Virus record (IMG/VR): IMGVR_UViG_3300020473_000106
Coordinates: 1-27,016 of that record
DNA length: 27,016 nt
Origin: a virus
Direction: 5' to 3' (one strand)
Made by a program: the position numbers and the translations under genes. Of this stretch, positions 4,824-27,016 are shown one piece after another. The notes under the pieces were generated by a model that made no database searches, was not told the origin of the DNA, and saw nothing but the letters and a program-made list of their open reading frames with translations. Numbering within the stretch: position 1 is the first letter of the stretch; every line of letters starts with the position of its first letter.

Positions 4824-5432
4824 ATGAGTAAATTTGAGGAACTTATCAAGGAAATCAAAGCAGGAAACATAGATGCAGTGGATCAATTAGAATCCGAGTT
4901 TAGTGGTTCAGCACTAAGAGAAAAAGCTGAAAAGGCAGGAGAGCTACAAGCCCAGGTAGAGGCGCTTGCCCCCTTTGCTAAAGAAGCCAAAATAAAAGAG
5001 CTTCAAAGTAATCTACCCGACAAATATGCAAATATGCAATTAACTGCGGATGACTTGAAAGATGTGAATCCTTCAGATATTACCCTTGAAACCCTCATTG
5101 TAAAGGCTGAAATCAAGAACCAACAACAAGAACAGTTTTTGGCTCAGGCTGCAACTGCGGCTGGATTTGAGTCCGTTGAGGCGTATCAAAGTGCATTAGA
5201 TAGTGTTAGACCCGAGCCTTCGGTATCACAACCTGAGGCCCTTAGCGACATGGAGACTGTTGCAAGTGCGGTTACTAATACTTCTGCAGGTCAACCAGAC
5301 AACACAGTTGATACAAGAAAGATGGCAAGGGAAGTATATTCAGAAGCAAAGGATGGAGGCAAAGCCCACGATTATGCAATGGGTGAAGCCCTAGAAGCCT
5401 TATTTGACAACCAAGTTAATCGGGAGACATAA
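4824..5432 (+). CDS. Putative capsid scaffolding protein
   Basis: The start is set at ATG 4824 because AGGAGG lies at 4812-4817, six bases upstream; an earlier in-frame ATG at 4785 has no ribosome site and would add a basic stretch unlike the rest. The resulting 202-residue protein is acidic, rich in Glu, Gln and Ala, and largely helical, with no catalytic motif. A central predicted coiled-coil-like segment (EKAEKAGELQAQVEALAPF, about residues 31-50) and the position just before the major capsid gene are typical of scaffold proteins that shape the procapsid and then leave. The identification rests on composition and context only. Confidence 0.6.
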   Translation: MSKFEELIKEIKAGNIDAVDQLESEFSGSALREKAEKAGELQAQVEALAPFAKEAKIKELQSNLPDKYANMQLTADDLKDVNPSDITLETLIVKAEIKNQQQEQFLAQAATAAGFESVEAYQSALDSVRPEPSVSQPEALSDMETVASAVTNTSAGQPDNTVDTRKMAREVYSEAKDGGKAHDYAMGEALEALFDNQVNRET

Positions 5433-5434
5433 CT

Positions 5435-5725
5435 TTGACAGATAGGACTTGCCAATATTGTTTCGCTATACAGAACCATAACCGGAATTTTTGTACAGAG
5501 TGTACAATGGTTATAGATACTGTGGTGTTGAATATTGCACCTTCGGCAACGCCGTCAATAAAAAATAGTATACCGCCCAGGGGTTCAAATAACTCTTGGG
5601 AAAAGGGGACTAGGACAGATGATAGGGGAGTACCTTATCTTGACAAAAACCTAGACCCTGTTAAGATGGGTGAGAAGTTCAATAAATATGACTACGAGCC
5701 CAAACCAATTAAAGTAACAACTTAA
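5435..5725 (+). CDS. Zinc-ribbon protein between scaffold and capsid genes
   Basis: The protein has 96 residues and a TTG start with GGGAG eight bases upstream, two bases after the scaffold stop. Cys6 and Cys9 (CQYC) pair with Cys20 and Cys23 (CTEC), giving CX2C-X10-CX2C, a classic zinc-ribbon layout. The remainder is polar and Pro/Lys-rich with no recognised domain; the last segment (NKYDYEPKPIKVTT) is basic. Possible roles are a small structural or assembly factor or a nucleic-acid-binding regulator; nothing decides between them. The same Cys spacing recurs in a mini-gene at 26105-26203 on the other strand. Confidence 0.65.
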   Translation: MTDRTCQYCFAIQNHNRNFCTECTMVIDTVVLNIAPSATPSIKNSIPPRGSNNSWEKGTRTDDRGVPYLDKNLDPVKMGEKFNKYDYEPKPIKVTT

Positions 5726-5737
5726 AGGAGAAATAAA

Positions 5738-6850
5738 GTGGCAACACAAACAGGAACAAGAAGGACCTATGATTCCACAGTCGGCGTAAAGCTAGACATG
5801 GAAGACGCCATTCATTTAATTTCCCCATTCGATGTGCCTTTTCTTGGAACTTACGGTGCCCAAGGTGGGTCTGCTTTCGCTTCAGAATCCACTTCTAGTA
5901 AAAAAGTCGAATGGCTAGAGGACGAATTAGTCCCAGCTTCAGACAAGGTAAACATGGGATCCAACATCAATAACTCCGCTACAACTCTTGTAGTTGATAA
6001 TGGAGCTTATTTCAAAGTTGGTGACCTTATCAGAGTTGATGATGAGTTAATGGCAGTTTCTGCTGTTTCATCAAATAACCTCACAATTTCAAGAGGTTAT
6101 GGCGACAGTACTGCTGCCGCTCACAACGATGACGCTGATGTCTTTATCTTAGGAACAATCCCTGTTGAAGGTGCTGATCCAGTATCAGGTATCAACAACC
6201 AGAGAACTTCTTTGTATAACATGACACAGATATACCAAGATGAACTAGAAGTAACTCGTTCAGAGGAAAAAGCAGCCAAATACGGTGTAAGTTCTGAAAT
6301 CGCATACCAAGGTGGTAAGAGATTAAAAGAAGCGGCTGTTAAATTAGAACAAAATATTATTCTCGGTTCAAGAAACGAGGATACATCCAACAAGAAAAGG
6401 TCTATGGGTGGACTTGACTATTTCATTACAAGTAATGTAGATAGCTCAACAAACGCATTAACCTTAGCAAAAATCAACGACCAAATGCAGGCTAGTTTCA
6501 ATGCTGGTGGTAATGTAGATATATTGGTAGTTGGTGGTACACAAAAGAGAAAAATCAATCTCTTTGATTCCGATGATATTCGTTTTTCACAAGATGAAAA
6601 CATCAGAGGTGCCGTTGTGGATTATCTCGACCTTGACTTTGGTAGAGTATATATAATGTTAGATAGATGGGTACCATCAGATATGTTATTTGGGTTAGAA
6701 ACTCAATACATTAACATGGTGTGGTTCGATACCTTTTTCATGGAAGCACTAGCTAAAACTGGTGACAGACAACAGTACCAACTCGTTGGGGAATGTTCGA
6801 TGAAGGTTAAAAACCAGAAAGCTCATTTTAAATTTAACGCCTTAACATAA
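5738..6850 (+). CDS. Major capsid protein, DUF5309/SU10-like (HK97 fold)
   Basis: The 370-residue protein starts at GTG with a strong AAAGGAG seven bases upstream, fitting high expression. The N-terminal segment (ISPFDVPFLGTYG at 29-41), the region EVTRSEEKAAKYG near 176-188, the helix around EAAVKLEQNIILGS and the C-terminal strands (LDFGRVYIMLDRWVP, then QLVGECSMKVKNQKAHF) match, from memory, the DUF5309 capsid family of SU10-like phages, which has the HK97 fold. Residues 78-139 look like an inserted beta domain with the motif RGYGDSTAAAH; related modules occur in the proteins at 7160-8041 and 8034-9599. A weak extra promoter (TTGACA, 16 bases, TAAGAT at 5662) lies upstream. Confidence 0.85.
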   Translation: MATQTGTRRTYDSTVGVKLDMEDAIHLISPFDVPFLGTYGAQGGSAFASESTSSKKVEWLEDELVPASDKVNMGSNINNSATTLVVDNGAYFKVGDLIRVDDELMAVSAVSSNNLTISRGYGDSTAAAHNDDADVFILGTIPVEGADPVSGINNQRTSLYNMTQIYQDELEVTRSEEKAAKYGVSSEIAYQGGKRLKEAAVKLEQNIILGSRNEDTSNKKRSMGGLDYFITSNVDSSTNALTLAKINDQMQASFNAGGNVDILVVGGTQKRKINLFDSDDIRFSQDENIRGAVVDYLDLDFGRVYIMLDRWVPSDMLFGLETQYINMVWFDTFFMEALAKTGDRQQYQLVGECSMKVKNQKAHFKFNALT

Positions 6851-13633: not shown

Positions 13634-13675
13634 ATGGATTGCTGTGGAAACGGGTGTTGCAACAACGGGGGGTAA
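13634..13675 (+). CDS. Cys-rich micro-ORF ending on a G6 run
   Basis: The ORF encodes MDCCGNGCCNNGG and stops at TAA 13673-13675. It has the best ribosome site in this stretch (AAAGGAG, eight bases upstream). The last two codons before the stop are GGG GGG (13667-13672). A -1 slip of the last Gly tRNA re-pairs perfectly on GGG and carries reading to GTA 13672, in the frame of the long downstream protein just before its signal peptide. It may be a real four-Cys micropeptide, a coupling leader, or the true 5' end of the downstream gene reached by frameshift. A miscounted G in the assembly would also explain it. Confidence 0.45.
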   Translation: MDCCGNGCCNNGG

Positions 13676-15717
13676 GTAAGTATTTAAGAATTTTAGCCGC
13701 CGTATGTTTAATATATCCATTACCGGTATATGCTAATGAAGGAGATACTACAACTACTACTACCACTACTATACCTACTACTACTACTACTACTATCCCG
13801 GGAGAAACCGAGGAAGTAGAAACTTTTGACGGACCTTTAGAGGAAGAGGAAGAAACTACAAGTACAACAAGTACAACAACTACTACTACCACTTCTACTA
13901 CGACTACTACTGTGCCTACTTATGAACAAGCCACAGATATAGAGTTACCTGAGGATCAATTAGATATTAATGGTGATGAAGTGGAAAACAATATAGTAAT
14001 TAATAATCATTATGATGGTCAATTTGGTTGTACAGATTTTTGTATGAACTTACACTATATGCAACACGGCAACGATAGTGAGGATTATACATTTATATTA
14101 CCAGAAACAACCACAGTGGAAGAGGAAGAATTAGATATAGAGATATATGAAGTAGGTTTTACAATAGGTGCATTAAATAATGAAGGTACAGTTACCTATA
14201 CTCATACAGATGAAACAACCCAAGAAAATGTCTTAGACGCCCAAAGTAATTCTAACTTACAAACCATGCTTGAAACAGTGGTTTATAATATTTACGATAC
14301 ACTAGACACCTTCATAGAAAGTTTTACAATAACCATTAATGACTGGTCATTGTTAGATGATATATCTTTTAAATATGTTATGCCCACAACTACTACCACT
14401 ACAACTACAACAACTACAACTTTACCCCCTCCGCCCCCTGAACCCGAACCTGAGCCAGAAATTTATATAGACCCATATATTAAAGAGGATAAAGAAGTTA
14501 TACTAGATGATGGAACTGTTGGAACATATAGTCAATCAGATATAGATGATGGTACTGTTGAAAGGGATAACCAAAGACAGGCTAATTTAGATACTTATGG
14601 TTGTGAATTAACGGATGAACAAATAGAAAGAGGAGATTGTGATGTCGAAATTATTGAGGAAGATATGGAAGAAATCGGAGACGAGTTTTTTGATGATGTT
14701 GATATACCTGACTTTGTGGAAGATGAATATGAGGAGGAAGAGTTTATTGAACTTACTGAGGAAGAGATCCTTGAACTTGAAAAAGAAATGGAACTTGATG
14801 TTAAAAAGTTGGAATTGGAAGATGAACTTGAAATCTTGGAATTTGAAAATGAAGAGGAGTTTGAGGAATTTATTGAAACCTATGTTGAGATTGAGGAATT
14901 CTTAGAGGAGTTTGATGATTTTGAGGAAGAAGTTATTATACTAGAAATACCTGATGAAATTGAAATAATTATAGAGGAAGAGGATATTGATGATTGGGAC
15001 ACAGAGTTTGAGGAAATAGAGGAAGATGAATTTGTTGAGGAAATTATCGAAACAGAAATACCTGTCGAAAAAGATGAGGAGGAAATTATTGATATTGTGG
15101 TTGAGGAAAAGATTGAGGAATTAGAGGAAGTAATCGAAATAGAAATAGAGGAAGATTTATCAGATGAGGAAGTTGAAGAGGCCATTGAAGTATATGTGCA
15201 AGAACTCGAACCCGAGGAAGTTGTAGAAGTATTGGAAGAAGTTGTAGAAGTTGGTATAGAAAACTTAGACCAAGCTACAGAGGAAGTACAAGAAGTTATA
15301 CAGGCAGTAGTAGAGGAAGCTATTGAGGATGTAGAGGATCTTACTGAGGAACAAATAGAAGTCGTAGCTGAGGTTTTAAATTTGGAAGAGAGTGATGATG
15401 TTGAAATTATTGCAGAGGCTGTAAAAGATGATGAAGTAGTAGCGGAAGCAGTAGAGGAATATGTTGAAAGAGCTATAGAAAATAAGGATGTAGAGAACTA
15501 TACCCTTGCTGATGTTGTTACAGAGGTACAGTTTGAGACCTTCTTAGACAACCCAATAGAAACATTTGTGGATATAGATTTGGATGAAATAAGTATAAGC
15601 ACAATAGGAGATGACATGACCCAAGACCAAAAAGAAAAAGCCCAGGAAGTTGTGGTTCCTGTAATTTTGACTAGAATAGCTAGTATGTCGGCTTTAATAT
15701 TTAGGAAGACTATATGA
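13639..15717 (+). CDS. Secreted, very acidic Thr/Glu-rich repeat protein
   Basis: Counting from TTG 13639 the protein has 692 residues; GTG 13654 or a -1 shift from the micro-ORF at 13634 are alternative starts. A basic stretch, a hydrophobic core (ILAAVCLIYPLPV) and VYA before Asn33 form a likely signal peptide. Poly-Thr tracts follow at 37-52, about 73-91 and 250-262, with Pro-rich hinges (PPPPPEPEPEPE), then about 300 residues dominated by Glu, Asp, Ile and Val and probably helical. The end is hydrophobic (VVVPVILTRIASMSALIF). Two Cys pairs lie between tracts. Such Thr tracts are typical of secreted Acidimicrobiia proteins and may carry sugars. Lying between small membrane proteins and the lysin, it may act in the envelope; function is unknown. 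Confidence 0.6.
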   Translation: MLWKRVLQQRGVSKYLRILAAVCLIYPLPVYANEGDTTTTTTTTIPTTTTTTIPGETEEVETFDGPLEEEEETTSTTSTTTTTTTSTTTTTVPTYEQATDIELPEDQLDINGDEVENNIVINNHYDGQFGCTDFCMNLHYMQHGNDSEDYTFILPETTTVEEEELDIEIYEVGFTIGALNNEGTVTYTHTDETTQENVLDAQSNSNLQTMLETVVYNIYDTLDTFIESFTITINDWSLLDDISFKYVMPTTTTTTTTTTTTLPPPPPEPEPEPEIYIDPYIKEDKEVILDDGTVGTYSQSDIDDGTVERDNQRQANLDTYGCELTDEQIERGDCDVEIIEEDMEEIGDEFFDDVDIPDFVEDEYEEEEFIELTEEEILELEKEMELDVKKLELEDELEILEFENEEEFEEFIETYVEIEEFLEEFDDFEEEVIILEIPDEIEIIIEEEDIDDWDTEFEEIEEDEFVEEIIETEIPVEKDEEEIIDIVVEEKIEELEEVIEIEIEEDLSDEEVEEAIEVYVQELEPEEVVEVLEEVVEVGIENLDQATEEVQEVIQAVVEEAIEDVEDLTEEQIEVVAEVLNLEESDDVEIIAEAVKDDEVVAEAVEEYVERAIENKDVENYTLADVVTEVQFETFLDNPIETFVDIDLDEISISTIGDDMTQDQKEKAQEVVVPVILTRIASMSALIFRKTI
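13747..13911 (+). repeat. ACN triplet microsatellite tracts coding poly-Thr
   Basis: Two blocks (13747-13795 and 13855-13911) are built of ACT, ACA and ACC codons for runs of up to eight Thr, broken by Ile-Pro, Ser or an acidic spacer. Near-perfect ACT runs are prone to slippage in whole codons, so tract length may vary between strains without breaking the frame. Confidence 0.8.
14386..14424 (+). repeat. ACN triplet tract, 13 Thr codons
   Basis: Thirteen Thr codons in a row (residues 250-262 counting from TTG 13639), directly followed by a Pro/Glu hinge. It marks the border between the beta-type middle part and the acidic helical part of the secreted protein. Confidence 0.8.
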
Positions 15718-19755: not shown

Positions 19756-19782
19756 GAAAGGCCCCTGAAATGGGGCTTTTCT
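19755..19782. terminator. Bidirectional intrinsic terminator between convergent arms
   Basis: An 11-bp stem (19755-19765 with 19772-19782, one G-T wobble) with the loop TGAAAT has a CCCC/GGGG core and A/T-rich flanks, so both strands give U-rich 3' ends. The + strand late genes and the - strand replication genes converge here. The stem includes the stop codon of the ferredoxin gene. Confidence 0.85.
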
Positions 19783-20026
19783 AAGGTTCAATCATTATAC
19801 ACTCGCCGGGACATTCCTCAGCGGATTCAATTACAGCTTCCTCTTGACCTTTAGGAACAACAGCTAAACCATTAGCTCCTTCTGTATTACCTTTTATTGC
19901 AGAATATATGTGGTCACCATCTTTAACATAGTAAAGACCATCATCTAAACCCACAAAAACATCAGGTGCTATTTCCTCACATAGTCCATCACCTGTACAT
20001 AAATCTTGGTCAATCCATACTTTCAC
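19781..20026 (-). CDS. Single-cluster ferredoxin, actinobacterial type
   Basis: The 81-residue protein opens MKVWIDQDLCTGDGLCEEIA, almost the signature of actinobacterial [3Fe-4S]/[4Fe-4S] ferredoxins that feed electrons to cytochromes P450 and other oxidoreductases. Cluster ligands are probably Cys10, Cys16 and Cys72 of ECPGEC; Asp13 stands where the second Cys of a four-Cys site would be, as in [3Fe-4S] or Asp-ligated [4Fe-4S] proteins. Cys76 is an extra nearby Cys. The GTG start has no Shine-Dalgarno site but a TATAAT box ends six bases upstream (leaderless start possible). It is last in the replication operon; its electron acceptor is unknown. It looks host-derived. Confidence 0.85.
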   Translation of the reverse strand: MKVWIDQDLCTGDGLCEEIAPDVFVGLDDGLYYVKDGDHIYSAIKGNTEGANGLAVVPKGQEEAVIESAEECPGECIMIEP

Positions 20027-23110: not shown

Positions 23111-23138
23111 ATTATACTATGTTCGGACTATTTGTAAA
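23111..23138 (-). promoter_or_regulatory. Sigma70-like promoter for the recombination operon
   Basis: On the - strand TTTACA (23138-23133), a 16-base spacer and TATAAT (23116-23111) match consensus at 11 of 12 positions. It overlaps the end of the polymerase gene, and the leader of about ten bases includes the GAGGAGG ribosome site of the nuclease gene. Confidence 0.6.
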
Positions 23139-24958
23139 GTTTCTGCACCTTCTGACCAATAGTCACCTACTTGAACATCAGCCACAATAGGTACTCTGAG
23201 TTCAAAGTCATAAGGTTCTATGATAGGGTTTTCCATAATTCTTACTATTTTCTGTATGGATTCATTAACTTTGGATTCATGTATTAGAAGTAGTAAGGAA
23301 TCATGGACTGTCCCTATCAAATTATCTAGGAAATCATCTCTTAATTCATTTAAGGTCATTAACATTAGGTCACTCGCCAACGATTGAACTGGTGAGTTGA
23401 TAGCCTGCCTCTCAGCTTGGGCTCTATAATATTCATTGGAAGAATGGATGTCATTTAATACTCTCAATCTACCTAATGGATTCATTACATAACCTCTGCG
23501 TTTGACTGTATCTCTCTGCCTTTGGTGCCATTCAAGTAAAGCTGGATAAGTGTTAAAGAATTTAGTTCTGGTTTCTTTTGCTTCTTCCAACGATATACTT
23601 AGACCAAAATTATCTCTTGCATATACCTTAAACTTCTCAGCACCCATACCATAAACAAAACCAAAGTTAACCGCTTTAGCTTTCTTTCTTTCCTCTTTTT
23701 CTGGGAATTCTTTACCAGTCATGGCTTGTGCAGTTATCGTATGTATGTCGCTATTGCTATGAAAGGCGCTTAAAAGTGCCTTATCGTTGCTGTAATGCGC
23801 CACTAAACGCAGTTCTACTTGTGAATAATCAACTTCAACAACCTTATAATCTTTGACCCCACCAATAAGACCACGGATAAATTCATCTCTAGGTACTTGT
23901 TGTAAGTTAGGATCCGAACTAGATAGTCGCCCAGTTACAGTATGAAATGGTTTAAAATTGGTATGTAAACGATAATTACTATCCATTCTTTCTGACCAAT
24001 TATCAAAGTATCTTGATTTATAGCCAGCCCAATGTCTAAACTCTAACACCTTATCAACTACACCTGATTGATCCATATCCAATAGTCTTAACAATACGGA
24101 TTCAGCAGTAGAAGGTGTACCAGATTTTGTACTCTCTAACATAGGTAAACCTAACTCTTTATACAATAGATTACCTAATTGTTTAGGACTACGAGGGTTA
24201 ACTTCATAACCTATGATATTCATTAGGTCAGTCTTAACTATTTCCACTTGTTCTAAAGTTTCATCTTGCCTATTGTGAAACTTGGTCCTATCTACTGGCA
24301 TACCATTAATTTCCATATCAGCCAAATTTCTATAAGCTGGCATTAATATATTAAAATATAATGGATTAGATATATGATGATTACCTTTATTGGATTCACT
24401 ACCTATAAGATTTCTTTGTGCTAACCATATTTGGTAAGTGTATAGCACATCATAAGCACCATACTCAAATAGTTCTTCCTTACTCATTTCATAAGGATCT
24501 TTTGATTTCATCAAGTGTTTCCATGGCTCTGCACCTAAGTATTTAATAGCCAAGGTTTCTAAATCTTTCTTGACATTTTCATCAAGGACATATTCAGCAC
24601 CCATCGTATCAAAACTAGGAAAGTATTCTCTACCATACTTAGCTTTGATGGCTTTATAATCAAACTTACCGTTCTGCATAATCCAATATTCTACTTTATC
24701 TAAAATAGGATATATCATTTCCCAGTAACTATGTTGCATTTGGTACTTATAATCTTGGTGATATAAAGGTAACACAAATGCAGTTTCACCATCAAAACTA
24801 AATTGTATGGTCACAATGTTAAAAGAAGGACTAAAGTAATCACCTAGTCTTTTCTTATTATCAGTTGTGGTTTCTACATCTAAAGCCGCAGTCTTTTTAA
24901 ATGCCTCTTGGGCTTTATGAACTGCGGTCATACTATCTATAATTATGGTATTAGACAT
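23117..24958 (-). CDS. polA: DNA polymerase, family A, with 3'-5' exonuclease
   Basis: The start is set at ATG 24958, which has AAAGGA close upstream and overlaps the previous gene by eight bases; an ATG at 24982 would add eight residues. In the 613-residue form the exonuclease has Asp27/Glu29 (LDVETT), Asn96/Asp100 (NGKFD) and Tyr/Asp169-170 (GAYD). Polymerase motif A has Asp377/Glu382 (VDYSQVELR), motif B Arg424, Lys428, Phe432 and Tyr436 (AVNFGFVYG), and motif C His552-Asp553. There is no 5' nuclease domain, so it is a Klenow-type replicative phage polymerase. Phe432 equals E. coli Phe762, the type linked in virome studies with virulent phages. Confidence 0.95.
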   Translation of the reverse strand: MSNTIIIDSMTAVHKAQEAFKKTAALDVETTTDNKKRLGDYFSPSFNIVTIQFSFDGETAFVLPLYHQDYKYQMQHSYWEMIYPILDKVEYWIMQNGKFDYKAIKAKYGREYFPSFDTMGAEYVLDENVKKDLETLAIKYLGAEPWKHLMKSKDPYEMSKEELFEYGAYDVLYTYQIWLAQRNLIGSESNKGNHHISNPLYFNILMPAYRNLADMEINGMPVDRTKFHNRQDETLEQVEIVKTDLMNIIGYEVNPRSPKQLGNLLYKELGLPMLESTKSGTPSTAESVLLRLLDMDQSGVVDKVLEFRHWAGYKSRYFDNWSERMDSNYRLHTNFKPFHTVTGRLSSSDPNLQQVPRDEFIRGLIGGVKDYKVVEVDYSQVELRLVAHYSNDKALLSAFHSNSDIHTITAQAMTGKEFPEKEERKKAKAVNFGFVYGMGAEKFKVYARDNFGLSISLEEAKETRTKFFNTYPALLEWHQRQRDTVKRRGYVMNPLGRLRVLNDIHSSNEYYRAQAERQAINSPVQSLASDLMLMTLNELRDDFLDNLIGTVHDSLLLLIHESKVNESIQKIVRIMENPIIEPYDFELRVPIVADVQVGDYWSEGAETLQIVRT

Positions 24959-25295
24959 GTATTCCTTTCTGTACTTTGTCATACAGGACTTTCAAATTCA
25001 TAGGCTTAAAGAACTTATCCCTCTCAATATATAGACCAAAAGGTAAGTCTAAATCTCTTAGCTCATTTATGCTAAATGGACCGAACTCACCATCTGGTAC
25101 CATGTGAGAAGTAACAAAGCCATAAGCTCTATCCTCATCTTTATCTAACTCCATAAGATACCAAGTGAAGCTACCTGTTGGATCAAAGAACTTGGCTGTA
25201 ACAGTCTGTTCTTCCATTGATAAGTTATCACCATAACCTAATTCAGGTGTATCTTTTAATATCTTTTTGGTTAACATCATTTGTCGTTTTGGCAT
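24951..25295 (-). CDS. DUF2958-like protein
   Basis: The 114-residue protein matches the DUF2958 pattern from memory: a start such as LKDTPELGYGDN, the segment VTAKFFDPTGSFTWYLMELD at 32-51, GEFGPFSINELRDLDLPFGL at 69-88 and IERDKFF at 90-96. DUF2958 proteins are common on plasmids and phages and have no firm function. It lies between the TS-like gene and the polymerase with tight overlaps, so it is co-expressed with replication genes. The start overlaps the preceding stop by one base. Confidence 0.7.
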   Translation of the reverse strand: MPKRQMMLTKKILKDTPELGYGDNLSMEEQTVTAKFFDPTGSFTWYLMELDKDEDRAYGFVTSHMVPDGEFGPFSINELRDLDLPFGLYIERDKFFKPMNLKVLYDKVQKGIHV

Positions 25296-26002
25296 TAAAA
25301 TACTCCTTCCATATCTTTAGCAAAACCATGTAAAGAAAATATGGTATGGGTAAAAGATCCCCATTTTATATTATCTTTATTTTGTTTGTTGTATTCCAAC
25401 ATAAACTTACTTCCATAAGCTACTGCCAATACAACATCTTTGGCCCAGTGTTTATAAAAATCACAAGACCTCATTATATAATTCATATATAATTTGTCAT
25501 ATCTAATAGCCATGTGATAACCAATAGAACAAGGCACTCTTTTACCATCTTTTCTACTGTCTGTATCTTGTGGCCACCAAATTGGTATGTATAGTTGTCG
25601 GCTATCTCTATTCTTAGTAGCCGCCGCAACTATTCTATCCATGTTATACTCTAATCTTTCAGGATATGAATAAGAGAACTTACCACCATGAATAAACTGT
25701 GACCAGTATTCCTCATCATGTTTATAAGCATTACCAGGATTACCACCTGTATTTAATCTCTCAAACAATTCCTCTTTTAGATAATCACCATCTAAGTTAT
25801 CTAAACCAAACTTCCATATATCACTACCCATATTTTTATGGCTAATGCTATACTGGTAGTTTAATAACTCGTGGGTCATATAACCTTTGTCTTTGCTCAC
25901 ATCCATATCTTGTACAGATTTGGATTGATAAATTAAAGCCAATTCTTTTAGGTCTCTAGTTATCTCGTTCTGAGCTTGGTCGATAGATATAAAATATCTC
26001 AT
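25295..26002 (-). CDS. Divergent thymidylate synthase-superfamily protein, possible dCMP hydroxymethylase
   Basis: The 235-residue protein aligns by eye with the thymidylate synthase core: DSRQ at 133-136 (phosphate-binding DSRR in TS), a Trp/Pro/Asp segment, the nucleophile Cys158 (VPCSIGYH), RSCD at 178-181, and SLHGF with His225/Phe227 in place of His-x-Tyr. Cys to Arg is 20 residues and Arg to the next key position is 11, exactly as in E. coli TS. That position is Asp189 instead of Asn177; Asp there marks dCMP hydroxymethylase and dCMP-accepting TS mutants. It may therefore methylate or hydroxymethylate dCMP. The start overlaps the upstream gene as ATGA. Confidence 0.75.
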   Translation of the reverse strand: MRYFISIDQAQNEITRDLKELALIYQSKSVQDMDVSKDKGYMTHELLNYQYSISHKNMGSDIWKFGLDNLDGDYLKEELFERLNTGGNPGNAYKHDEEYWSQFIHGGKFSYSYPERLEYNMDRIVAAATKNRDSRQLYIPIWWPQDTDSRKDGKRVPCSIGYHMAIRYDKLYMNYIMRSCDFYKHWAKDVVLAVAYGSKFMLEYNKQNKDNIKWGSFTHTIFSLHGFAKDMEGVF

Positions 26003-26121
26003 CTTTCCTCCTTCGATTTTAATTTAATTAATCTGGCTTCTACATAGACTTGGATGTCGATTAGTTTTTCCTCATCATCAATCTTGTCTATCTCATCTAA
26101 CCATTCATGAAGGTATCTCAT
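25999..26121 (-). CDS. Small helical charged protein, 40 residues
   Basis: ATG 26121 is chosen because AAGGAGG lies just before it; an upstream in-frame start at 26196 would add 25 residues that overlap the zinc-ribbon mini-gene almost entirely. The protein (MRYLHEWLDEIDKIDDEEKL start) is one charged helix and ends in KSKEER. Its stop overlaps the TS-like gene start as ATGA. Function is unknown. Confidence 0.55.
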   Translation of the reverse strand: MRYLHEWLDEIDKIDDEEKLIDIQVYVEARLIKLKSKEER

Positions 26122-26203
26122 CTTCCTCCTTAATCTCATAGAAACAATGTTTGCAGAATTCCCATTTAGGATCCCAATAATTGAAACACCTATCACAAAT
26201 CAT
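26105..26203 (-). CDS. Zinc-ribbon mini-protein, 32 residues
   Basis: ATG 26203 overlaps the stop of the upstream gene as ATGA and opens 32 codons ending at TGA 26107-26105. Cys3/Cys6 (CDRC) and Cys17/Cys20 (CKHC) make CX2C-X10-CX2C, a complete minimal zinc ribbon, followed by an acidic tail. It overlaps the next gene by 17 bases. The tight coupling and intact zinc site make it very probably real. A role in binding nucleic acid or a partner enzyme is possible. The same Cys spacing occurs in the protein at 5435-5725. Confidence 0.65.
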   Translation of the reverse strand: MICDRCFNYWDPKWEFCKHCFYEIKEEDEIPS

Positions 26204-27003
26204 ACATCCAATCCTTCTAATTTATCTAATGTTAGATTATTCACTTGAAGGCTAGGCTTTTGCTCACCCTTCTGTGATAAATCCCACATTGTTCTTACTC
26301 TACGAAAAGGCCCATAGATTTCTTCCTCTATAGTTTTACCTTCTCTCTCGTATCGTAAAACTGTGTCATGCCACTTCTGTATTCTCCTAGCTGTAGGCGT
26401 ATTTAATTCTAAAACCTGTTCAAACATTTGTGGATTAGCATAGAGATAAGGTAAAGTTTTAAAAGCATGTACCTGTGATACATCTATTTTCCACTGAAAA
26501 CTTATCTCTTTAGGATCACCTATATAACTAGCTAAAACACTGGCTAGACCTATATCTAAACCAGAGATATAACCCATATAAGTAACGCGGCTATGAAACA
26601 CTAGGGTAGGTTTAATGTGTGAATCCAACTGACCCCGAAAGGTGGCTGATAACAGACAGTTACCCCATTTGTGTTTCTTAGCCGACCTTTTATTACTTCG
26701 GAATTGCATTTCAGTTACAATTCCTTTATTACCAACCTCATTATATATCTCTCTGGATGCCTTAATGAACCTACTTGTTATCTCGGGATCCAAATAACTA
26801 CGAATAAGATTAGTCCATCTACCTTGTAAGAACCATAAATCATAACCTATATCAAAATCATTATGAAGGCTGGTGCTTTTCAAGGTAACATCATATAAAT
26901 TAGTACCAATTCCCATTTCATGGCCTACCTCAGGAGATAGTATATGACTTCTTGTGGCAATATTATGTAAAGCCGTAGCTTCAAATGTATTATTAATATC
27001 CAC
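26200..27003 (-). CDS. Second putative TS-fold protein
   Basis: From GTG 27003 the protein has 267 residues, but the frame stays open to the window edge, so the true start may lie outside. By eye it keeps the TS skeleton: Cys116 (WGNCLLSATFRG), Ser138-Arg139 (FHSR), Asp150 exactly 11 residues after Arg (YISGLDIG) and His179-x-Phe181 (SQVHAFK), with Cys-to-His 63 residues apart against 61 in E. coli TS. Sequence around these points is otherwise far from TS, so homology is tentative. Asp replaces the dUMP-selecting Asn, as in the companion gene at 25295. The two could form a heteromer or act in sequence on a pyrimidine nucleotide. Confidence 0.5.
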   Translation of the reverse strand: MDINNTFEATALHNIATRSHILSPEVGHEMGIGTNLYDVTLKSTSLHNDFDIGYDLWFLQGRWTNLIRSYLDPEITSRFIKASREIYNEVGNKGIVTEMQFRSNKRSAKKHKWGNCLLSATFRGQLDSHIKPTLVFHSRVTYMGYISGLDIGLASVLASYIGDPKEISFQWKIDVSQVHAFKTLPYLYANPQMFEQVLELNTPTARRIQKWHDTVLRYEREGKTIEEEIYGPFRRVRTMWDLSQKGEQKPSLQVNNLTLDKLEGLDV

Positions 27004-27016
27004 TATCCTGTCTGAA

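Follow-up and report, generated by a model that had tools for sequence, protein, structure and literature searches.

A widespread pair of adjoining thymidylate synthase-like genes in phages and its possible place in a cytosine-replacement cassette

Why would a phage keep two different genes of the thymidylate synthase (TS) type side by side, and on which pyrimidine would their products act? The question is raised by a 27,016-base virus record, analyzed here as a whole and called the window, in which two such genes lie on the minus strand, upstream of a DNA polymerase gene. An earlier note on this DNA had placed an aspartate at the dUMP/dCMP specificity position of both products and had proposed that the phage makes modified cytosine or that the two proteins act as a heteromer. 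We call the two genes TSa and TSb. The features at this end of the window are as follows.

23117..24982, minus strand: DNA polymerase I, downstream of TSa (phrog_17, E 9.5e-128)
24951..25295, minus strand: DUF2958 protein, between TSa and the DNA polymerase (PF11171, E 5.4e-12)
25295..26002, minus strand: TSa, predicted cytosine-type TS-superfamily protein of 235 aa (C158, R178, D181, D189, and H225; E78 at the TS Glu58 position)
25999..26121, minus strand: helical mini-ORF of 40 aa, beginning MRYLHEWLDEIDK (ORF confirmed)
26105..26203, minus strand: zinc-ribbon mini-ORF of 32 aa, CxxC-x10-CxxC (ORF confirmed)
26200..27003, minus strand: TSb, divergent protein with a predicted TS fold, phrog_13667, 267 aa, GTG start (invariant C116 and R139; near-invariant D150)
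26993..27016, minus strand: last 8 codons (FRQDSGY and stop) of an all-alpha NTP pyrophosphatase (dCTPase/dUTPase) gene, at the contig end

TSb is complete. Its GTG start codon and the stop codon of the upstream pyrophosphatase gene overlap, and the final residues encoded by that gene correspond to the C terminus of the L014 NTP pyrophosphatase; relatives carry the full gene (L014 9553-9993 and L012 9505-9954; PF08761). The major capsid protein (window 5738-6850, plus strand) shares at most about 31% identity with cultured phages, and the window therefore represents a phage with no close cultured relative. Elsewhere in the window, an ORF of 692 aa (13639-15717, plus strand) adjoins the lysis region; its product contains long runs of Thr and a highly acidic segment rich in Glu and Asp. 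A small 4Fe-4S ferredoxin gene (19781-20026, minus strand; PF13459, E 1e-15) sits at one end of the replication block and, among the related loci compared, recurs only in the IMG/VR contig of L006, at the corresponding end.

Both genes were found where they had been reported, with every listed residue in place: C158, R178 (+20), D189 (+11), and H225-x-F227 in TSa and C116, R139 (+23), D150 (+11), and H179-x-F181 in TSb. The E. coli reference residues were also correct, the K-12 thyA translation giving C146/R166/N177/H207-x-Y209, and T4 gp42 gives C148/R168/D179/H216-x-Y218. The specificity aspartate proved to be a trait of both families. Among 69 TSa sequences paired with a TSb, conservation was 98% for C158, 100% for R178, 98% for D189, and 100% for H225, and across 100 TSa rows D189 and C158 each reached 98 to 100%; the equivalents of the TS Cys, Arg166, Asp169, and His207 (C158, R178, D181, and H225) were conserved at 97 to 100%. 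The Asn177 that marks classical ThyA (EC 2.1.1.45) is thus replaced, with Asp in 68/69 paired TSa. TSb is far more variable, with only five columns conserved at 85% or more across 72 divergent, non-redundant sequences; these include C116 (100%), R139 (100%), and D150 (98%, Asp in 71 of the 72), and Y70 is also invariant. The H179-x-F motif is less conserved (His in 50/72), and there are two types of TSb, one with Tyr142 and His179 (48/72, including that of the window) versus one with mostly Glu142 and no His179.

That the two proteins share the TS fold was borne out by structure prediction and fold searches against the PDB. For TSa, the Pfam family Thymidylat_synt (PF00303) matched with an E value of 2.8e-5 and 23.9 bits, just below the cutoff of 24.3, and phrog_160 matched with an E value of 1.7e-17. 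A TSa profile of 85 sequences retrieved TS-superfamily chains from the PDB, the best being 9iqc and 9iqu (E about 9e-11), named in their deposits as riboflavin-dependent monooxygenase and phage HY126 dCMP hydroxylase AfhB, followed by the L. casei TS variant 1njc and then MilA. The AlphaFold2 model of TSa (pLDDT 94.8) gave 396 PDB matches with E values of ≤0.001, the best 50 of which were all from the TS superfamily, with MilA (TM 0.74), T4 dCMP hydroxymethylase, and AfhB at the top. The model thus identifies TSa as a TS-superfamily member.

TSb had no Pfam match and was assigned to phrog_13667, a family of unknown function (E 2.1e-26). Its model (pLDDT 93.5, built with 64 relatives) gave 52 PDB matches with E values of ≤1e-3, and the best 50 of the 52 all belonged to the TS superfamily, AfhB and MilA coming first. 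Since the global TM-scores to TS were only about 0.43, TSb would be a very divergent member, yet its predicted structure is that of a TS-fold protein. In this way phrog_13667, filed as unknown, gains a TS fold, seen here by model and fold search. Its members include Muddy gp47 and Serbin CPT_Serbin_051, which hold the place of TSb in the same cassette and are annotated as "hypothetical protein" or, sometimes, "pyrimidine hmase synthase." Sequence matches of TSb to eIF3H and SUMO chains in the PDB (E 0.05 to 0.6, profile included) were taken as chance.

The relationship between the two families was also detectable by profile. Outside its own family, a TSb-only profile, from which TSa sequences had been excluded, matched TSa proteins and no other ORF, and hhalign of TSb against TSa gave an E value of 6e-4, with C116 paired to C158, R139 to R178, and D150 to D189; TSb against AfhB gave 1.2e-3, versus 0.18 to 0.70 for unrelated control families. 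Over all 18 comparisons in which the TSa or TSb profile was set against an unrelated neighbor family, the E values were 0.10 to 0.70.

The layout, which the earlier note had not recognized, turned out to be a cassette that recurs across many cultured phages. A TSb gene closely precedes TSa in 67 non-redundant phage loci. Of the 35 IMG/VR loci obtained with a TSb query, 34 had TSa as the next TS-family gene, within about 320 bases downstream; the exception was L030, with TSa 1 kb away. In 16/68 loci the ends of the two genes overlap by 4 nt. The pair also occurs in cultured Gordonia, Mycobacterium (Muddy), Serratia, Pseudomonas, and Brevundimonas phages, annotated as "thymidylate synthase" and "hypothetical protein." A bacterial origin of TSb was not borne out, a scan of 84,980 genomes with narrow search patterns finding none. 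The pair is genuine and widespread; it is not unique but has been under-described.

The TSa tree comprises the clade of the window, in which all observable members are paired, and a large clade with most deep branches paired and one set of 25 members without any TSb, which indicates that TSa does not always need TSb. No hidden TSb was found in 35 TSa loci lacking one (nine neighbor groups against the TSa and TSb profiles, E 0.10 to 0.70); the contigs of L059, L117, and L093, also among the TSb-less, begin at TSa and so could not reveal one. With the root of the tree not fixed, the pairing is probably old, and TSb was probably lost at least once. TSb-less loci (L082, L085, L089, L094, L099, L124, and others) have IMPDH-like, 5'-nucleotidase (NT5C), trimeric dUTPase, or asparagine-synthase-like neighbors, possibly a different base-modification pathway. 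Other arrangements were seen as well. L067 has two TSa copies (5271-5969 and 5956-6735) after a single TSb, the first with the catalytic Cys changed to Thr and the specificity Asp to Asn and the second intact, and a second TSb-like ORF retaining Cys, Arg, and Asp lies downstream of TSa in four loci (L091:7071-7871, L115:7748-8491, L114:6855-7493, and L065:6939-7496).

The gene content around the pair is strikingly constant. An NTP pyrophosphatase and a DNA polymerase I are each present in 66/67 of the non-redundant paired loci, a kinase in 63/67, and a deaminase in 60/67, and the commonest order (47/67) is kinase, pyrophosphatase, TSb, TSa, dCMP deaminase, and PolA. Muddy, Emalyn, Serbin, and others show this same kinase-to-PolA order, and in the close relatives L012 and L014 the kinase and pyrophosphatase are directly upstream of TSb. 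The two mini-genes between the pair, which the earlier note had described as part of the layout, do exist as ORFs (the zinc ribbon in five and the helical one in three of six near relatives checked). They are incidental, however, and were rejected as components of the system, being missing from most paired loci; neither was found in L058 or in many loci with the 4-nt overlap, which places them outside the core. The DUF2958 gene is probably not part of the core either, because L014 has a copy and L012 does not.

Two of these neighbors point to nucleotide replacement. By hhalign, the cassette pyrophosphatase is homologous to the T4 gp56 dCTPase/dUTPase (E 1.1e-14; both PF08761), and the cassette kinase to RB69 ORF045 (E 5.7e-11), which lies three genes from the RB69 dCMP hydroxylase homologue in the RB69 5-hydroxycytosine cluster. 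No glycosyltransferase or other hmC-decorating gene was recognized in a 47-kb relative, so that the final base may be undecorated or its decorator unrecognizable.

The active-site residues allow the likely chemistry to be narrowed. Positions 177 and 147 separate TS homologues on cytosine-modified contigs from ordinary ones in the MetaGPA study (PMC8670742), and in TSa the residue after the nucleophilic Cys is Ser or Thr, matching T4 gp42 and AfhB, and not His. All 13 members of the window's TSa clade have Glu at the Glu58/Glu60 position (E78) and Asp at the folate-binding Asp169 position, and this Glu78 and Asp181 argue for folate use in the clade. The larger TSa clade has His at the Glu58 position in 81/87 sequences, followed three residues further on by a conserved Glu, and the catalytic mechanism there may therefore differ. 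TSa ends 10 residues past H225, without the closing tail of the ThyA type, and has an invariant Arg135-Gln136 at the site of the partner-derived Arg123/Arg124 phosphate clamp of T4 gp42. TSb keeps the Cys and Arg166 equivalents (C116 and R139, aligned to the Cys and Arg of TSa) and has a long C-terminal part that TSa lacks. It has Tyr or Glu at the position of the folate-site Asp169, no Glu58 equivalent, and no Arg126/127-type clamp (no conserved Arg pair before the strand in the 72-sequence alignment). Lacking the Asp169 and Glu58 equivalents, TSb probably makes no TS-style use of folate.

Two subunits together form a TS active site, and the family works as a homodimer. In our judgment there is about an even chance that the pair is part of a cassette for pre-replicative cytosine replacement, with TSb as the heteromer partner of TSa; the substrate, product, cofactor, and heteromer are the parts of this reading that we infer. 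A T4 gp56-like pyrophosphatase would remove dCTP (and dUTP), yielding dCMP; Cys158 of TSa would attack C6 of dCMP, with Asp189 reading the cytosine, and TSa with methylene-tetrahydrofolate would add a one-carbon group at C5, most likely hydroxymethyl. The cassette kinase would then phosphorylate the modified dCMP, and the phage polymerase would insert the modified nucleotide. TSb would be a second TS-fold component, with its Cys/Arg/Asp pocket kept and the folate-site Asp missing, most likely in a heteromer with TSa. Three features favor cytosine as the target: the specificity Asp, near-invariant in TSa and TSb alike; the gp56 homologue; and fold neighbors that are cytosine enzymes. Together with the Ser/Thr after Cys, these strengthen the original suggestion of modified cytosine. 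The heteromer is favored because it takes the partner subunit to complete a TS active site and because TSb and TSa are adjacent, often with a 4-nt overlap. Hydroxymethyl is the most likely group, since the C-terminal tail closing off the TS active site is missing from TSa, just as it is from T4 dCMP hydroxymethylase (PMC6400193). On this best reading, TSa would be a folate-type dCMP (hydroxymethyl)ase.

The two proteins might instead be successive enzymes, TSa making 5-hydroxymethyl-dCMP and TSb taking up this product in its own Cys/Arg/Asp pocket and exchanging or extending the C5 substituent to give a more elaborate cytosine. We consider this rather unlikely, although the retention of Cys, Arg, and Asp in TSb brings it close behind the heteromer: near-100% conservation of these residues across 72 sequences goes beyond the needs of a structural subunit, folate use by TSb is improbable, TSa occurs without TSb, and some loci have a second TSb downstream of TSa. 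Against it, no substrate or co-substrate gene was recognized, and the tight coupling and constant order would equally fit a heteromer. The product could also be plain 5-methyl-dCMP, as for the L. casei TS N229D variant or phage Xp12, in keeping with the folate residues of TSa and with the methylation of dCMP by Asn-to-Asp TS variants (Liu and Santi 1992, as cited in PMC8670742). We hold this to be quite improbable, the missing sealing tail favoring water attack and hence hydroxymethyl, as argued for T4 dCH (PMC6400193).

Somewhat less improbable is a flavin-dependent dCMP 5-hydroxylase of the RB69/AfhB type, which would put 5-hydroxycytosine-derived bases in the DNA. The solved sequences closest to the TSa profile are indeed 9iqc and 9iqu, the RB69 homologue aligns to TSa over its whole length (E 1.4e-14) and likewise ends shortly after H-x-F, and the kinases are homologous; however, at the positions that are RSQN and Phe in AfhB relatives, TSa has RSCD, with the folate Asp, and, in the window's clade, the catalytic Glu, and neither the TSa nor the TSb profile matches RB69 ORF046/047. 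The least probable reading takes TSa as an ordinary thymidylate synthase in an operon for dTTP, as the announcement of Gordonia phage Azira reads its dCMP deaminase, TS, dUTPase, and thymidylate kinase genes (PMC10353413). The gene content would suit a route from dUMP to dTTP, and database names say thymidylate synthase, but about 98% of paired TSa have Asp and not Asn at 177, Ser or Thr and not His follows the Cys, the closing tail is absent, ThyX already supplies dTMP from a separate gene in three paired loci, and TSb would be left unaccounted for.

We found no published description of the TSb-TSa pair in the accessible literature, the Lee et al. 2025 preprint (glycosylated 5-hydroxycytosine) lying outside the search. 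If the cassette reading is true, many cultured Gordonia, Mycobacterium, Serratia, Pseudomonas, and Brevundimonas phages listed with an ordinary TS carry a cytosine-modification cassette, which would bear on restriction and CRISPR escape, on sequencing behavior, and on the engineering of these phages, and phrog_13667 would gain a function. More tentatively, and with somewhat less than even likelihood, the pair may be the first two-gene heteromeric TS-superfamily enzyme, or a two-step pair with an undescribed C5-cytosine reaction of TSb, giving a novel modified cytosine in a large group of phages, among them the therapeutic mycobacteriophage Muddy. In either case, one may ask why a family of homodimeric enzymes should have given rise to a conserved gene pair.

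Among known systems, the CMP hydroxymethylase MilA is the top structural match to TSa and carries out cytosine C5 hydroxymethylation; to our knowledge, it is neither a phage DNA-base enzyme nor paired with a TSb. RB69 ORF048 and HY126 AfhB (9iqu and 9iqc) are closer by profile, being the best match among solved chains, and resemble TSa in length, in the end of the protein, in dCMP as the (predicted) substrate, and in a homologous kinase nearby. The AfhB relatives have RSQN and no Glu60, in contrast to the RSCD and E78 of TSa, and no TSb was seen beside RB69 ORF048. With the gp42/gp56/gp1 system of T4, the cassette shares the specificity Asp of TSa (D189 for Asp179), the Cys-Arg-Asp-His set (C158 for Cys148), the short end, a gp56-family pyrophosphatase, and the pre-replicative logic; the equivalent of gp42 Glu60 is E78 in 13/13 of the window's clade and His in most of the larger one. 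The cassette kinase is outside the gp1 dNMP kinase family, and a glucosyltransferase was not recognized. T4 has a single TS-fold protein, a homodimer, to which the cassette would add an adjoining second one. Our best reading is therefore a cytosine-replacement cassette of the T4 kind, whose variation is the extra conserved protein TSb, with its predicted TS fold.
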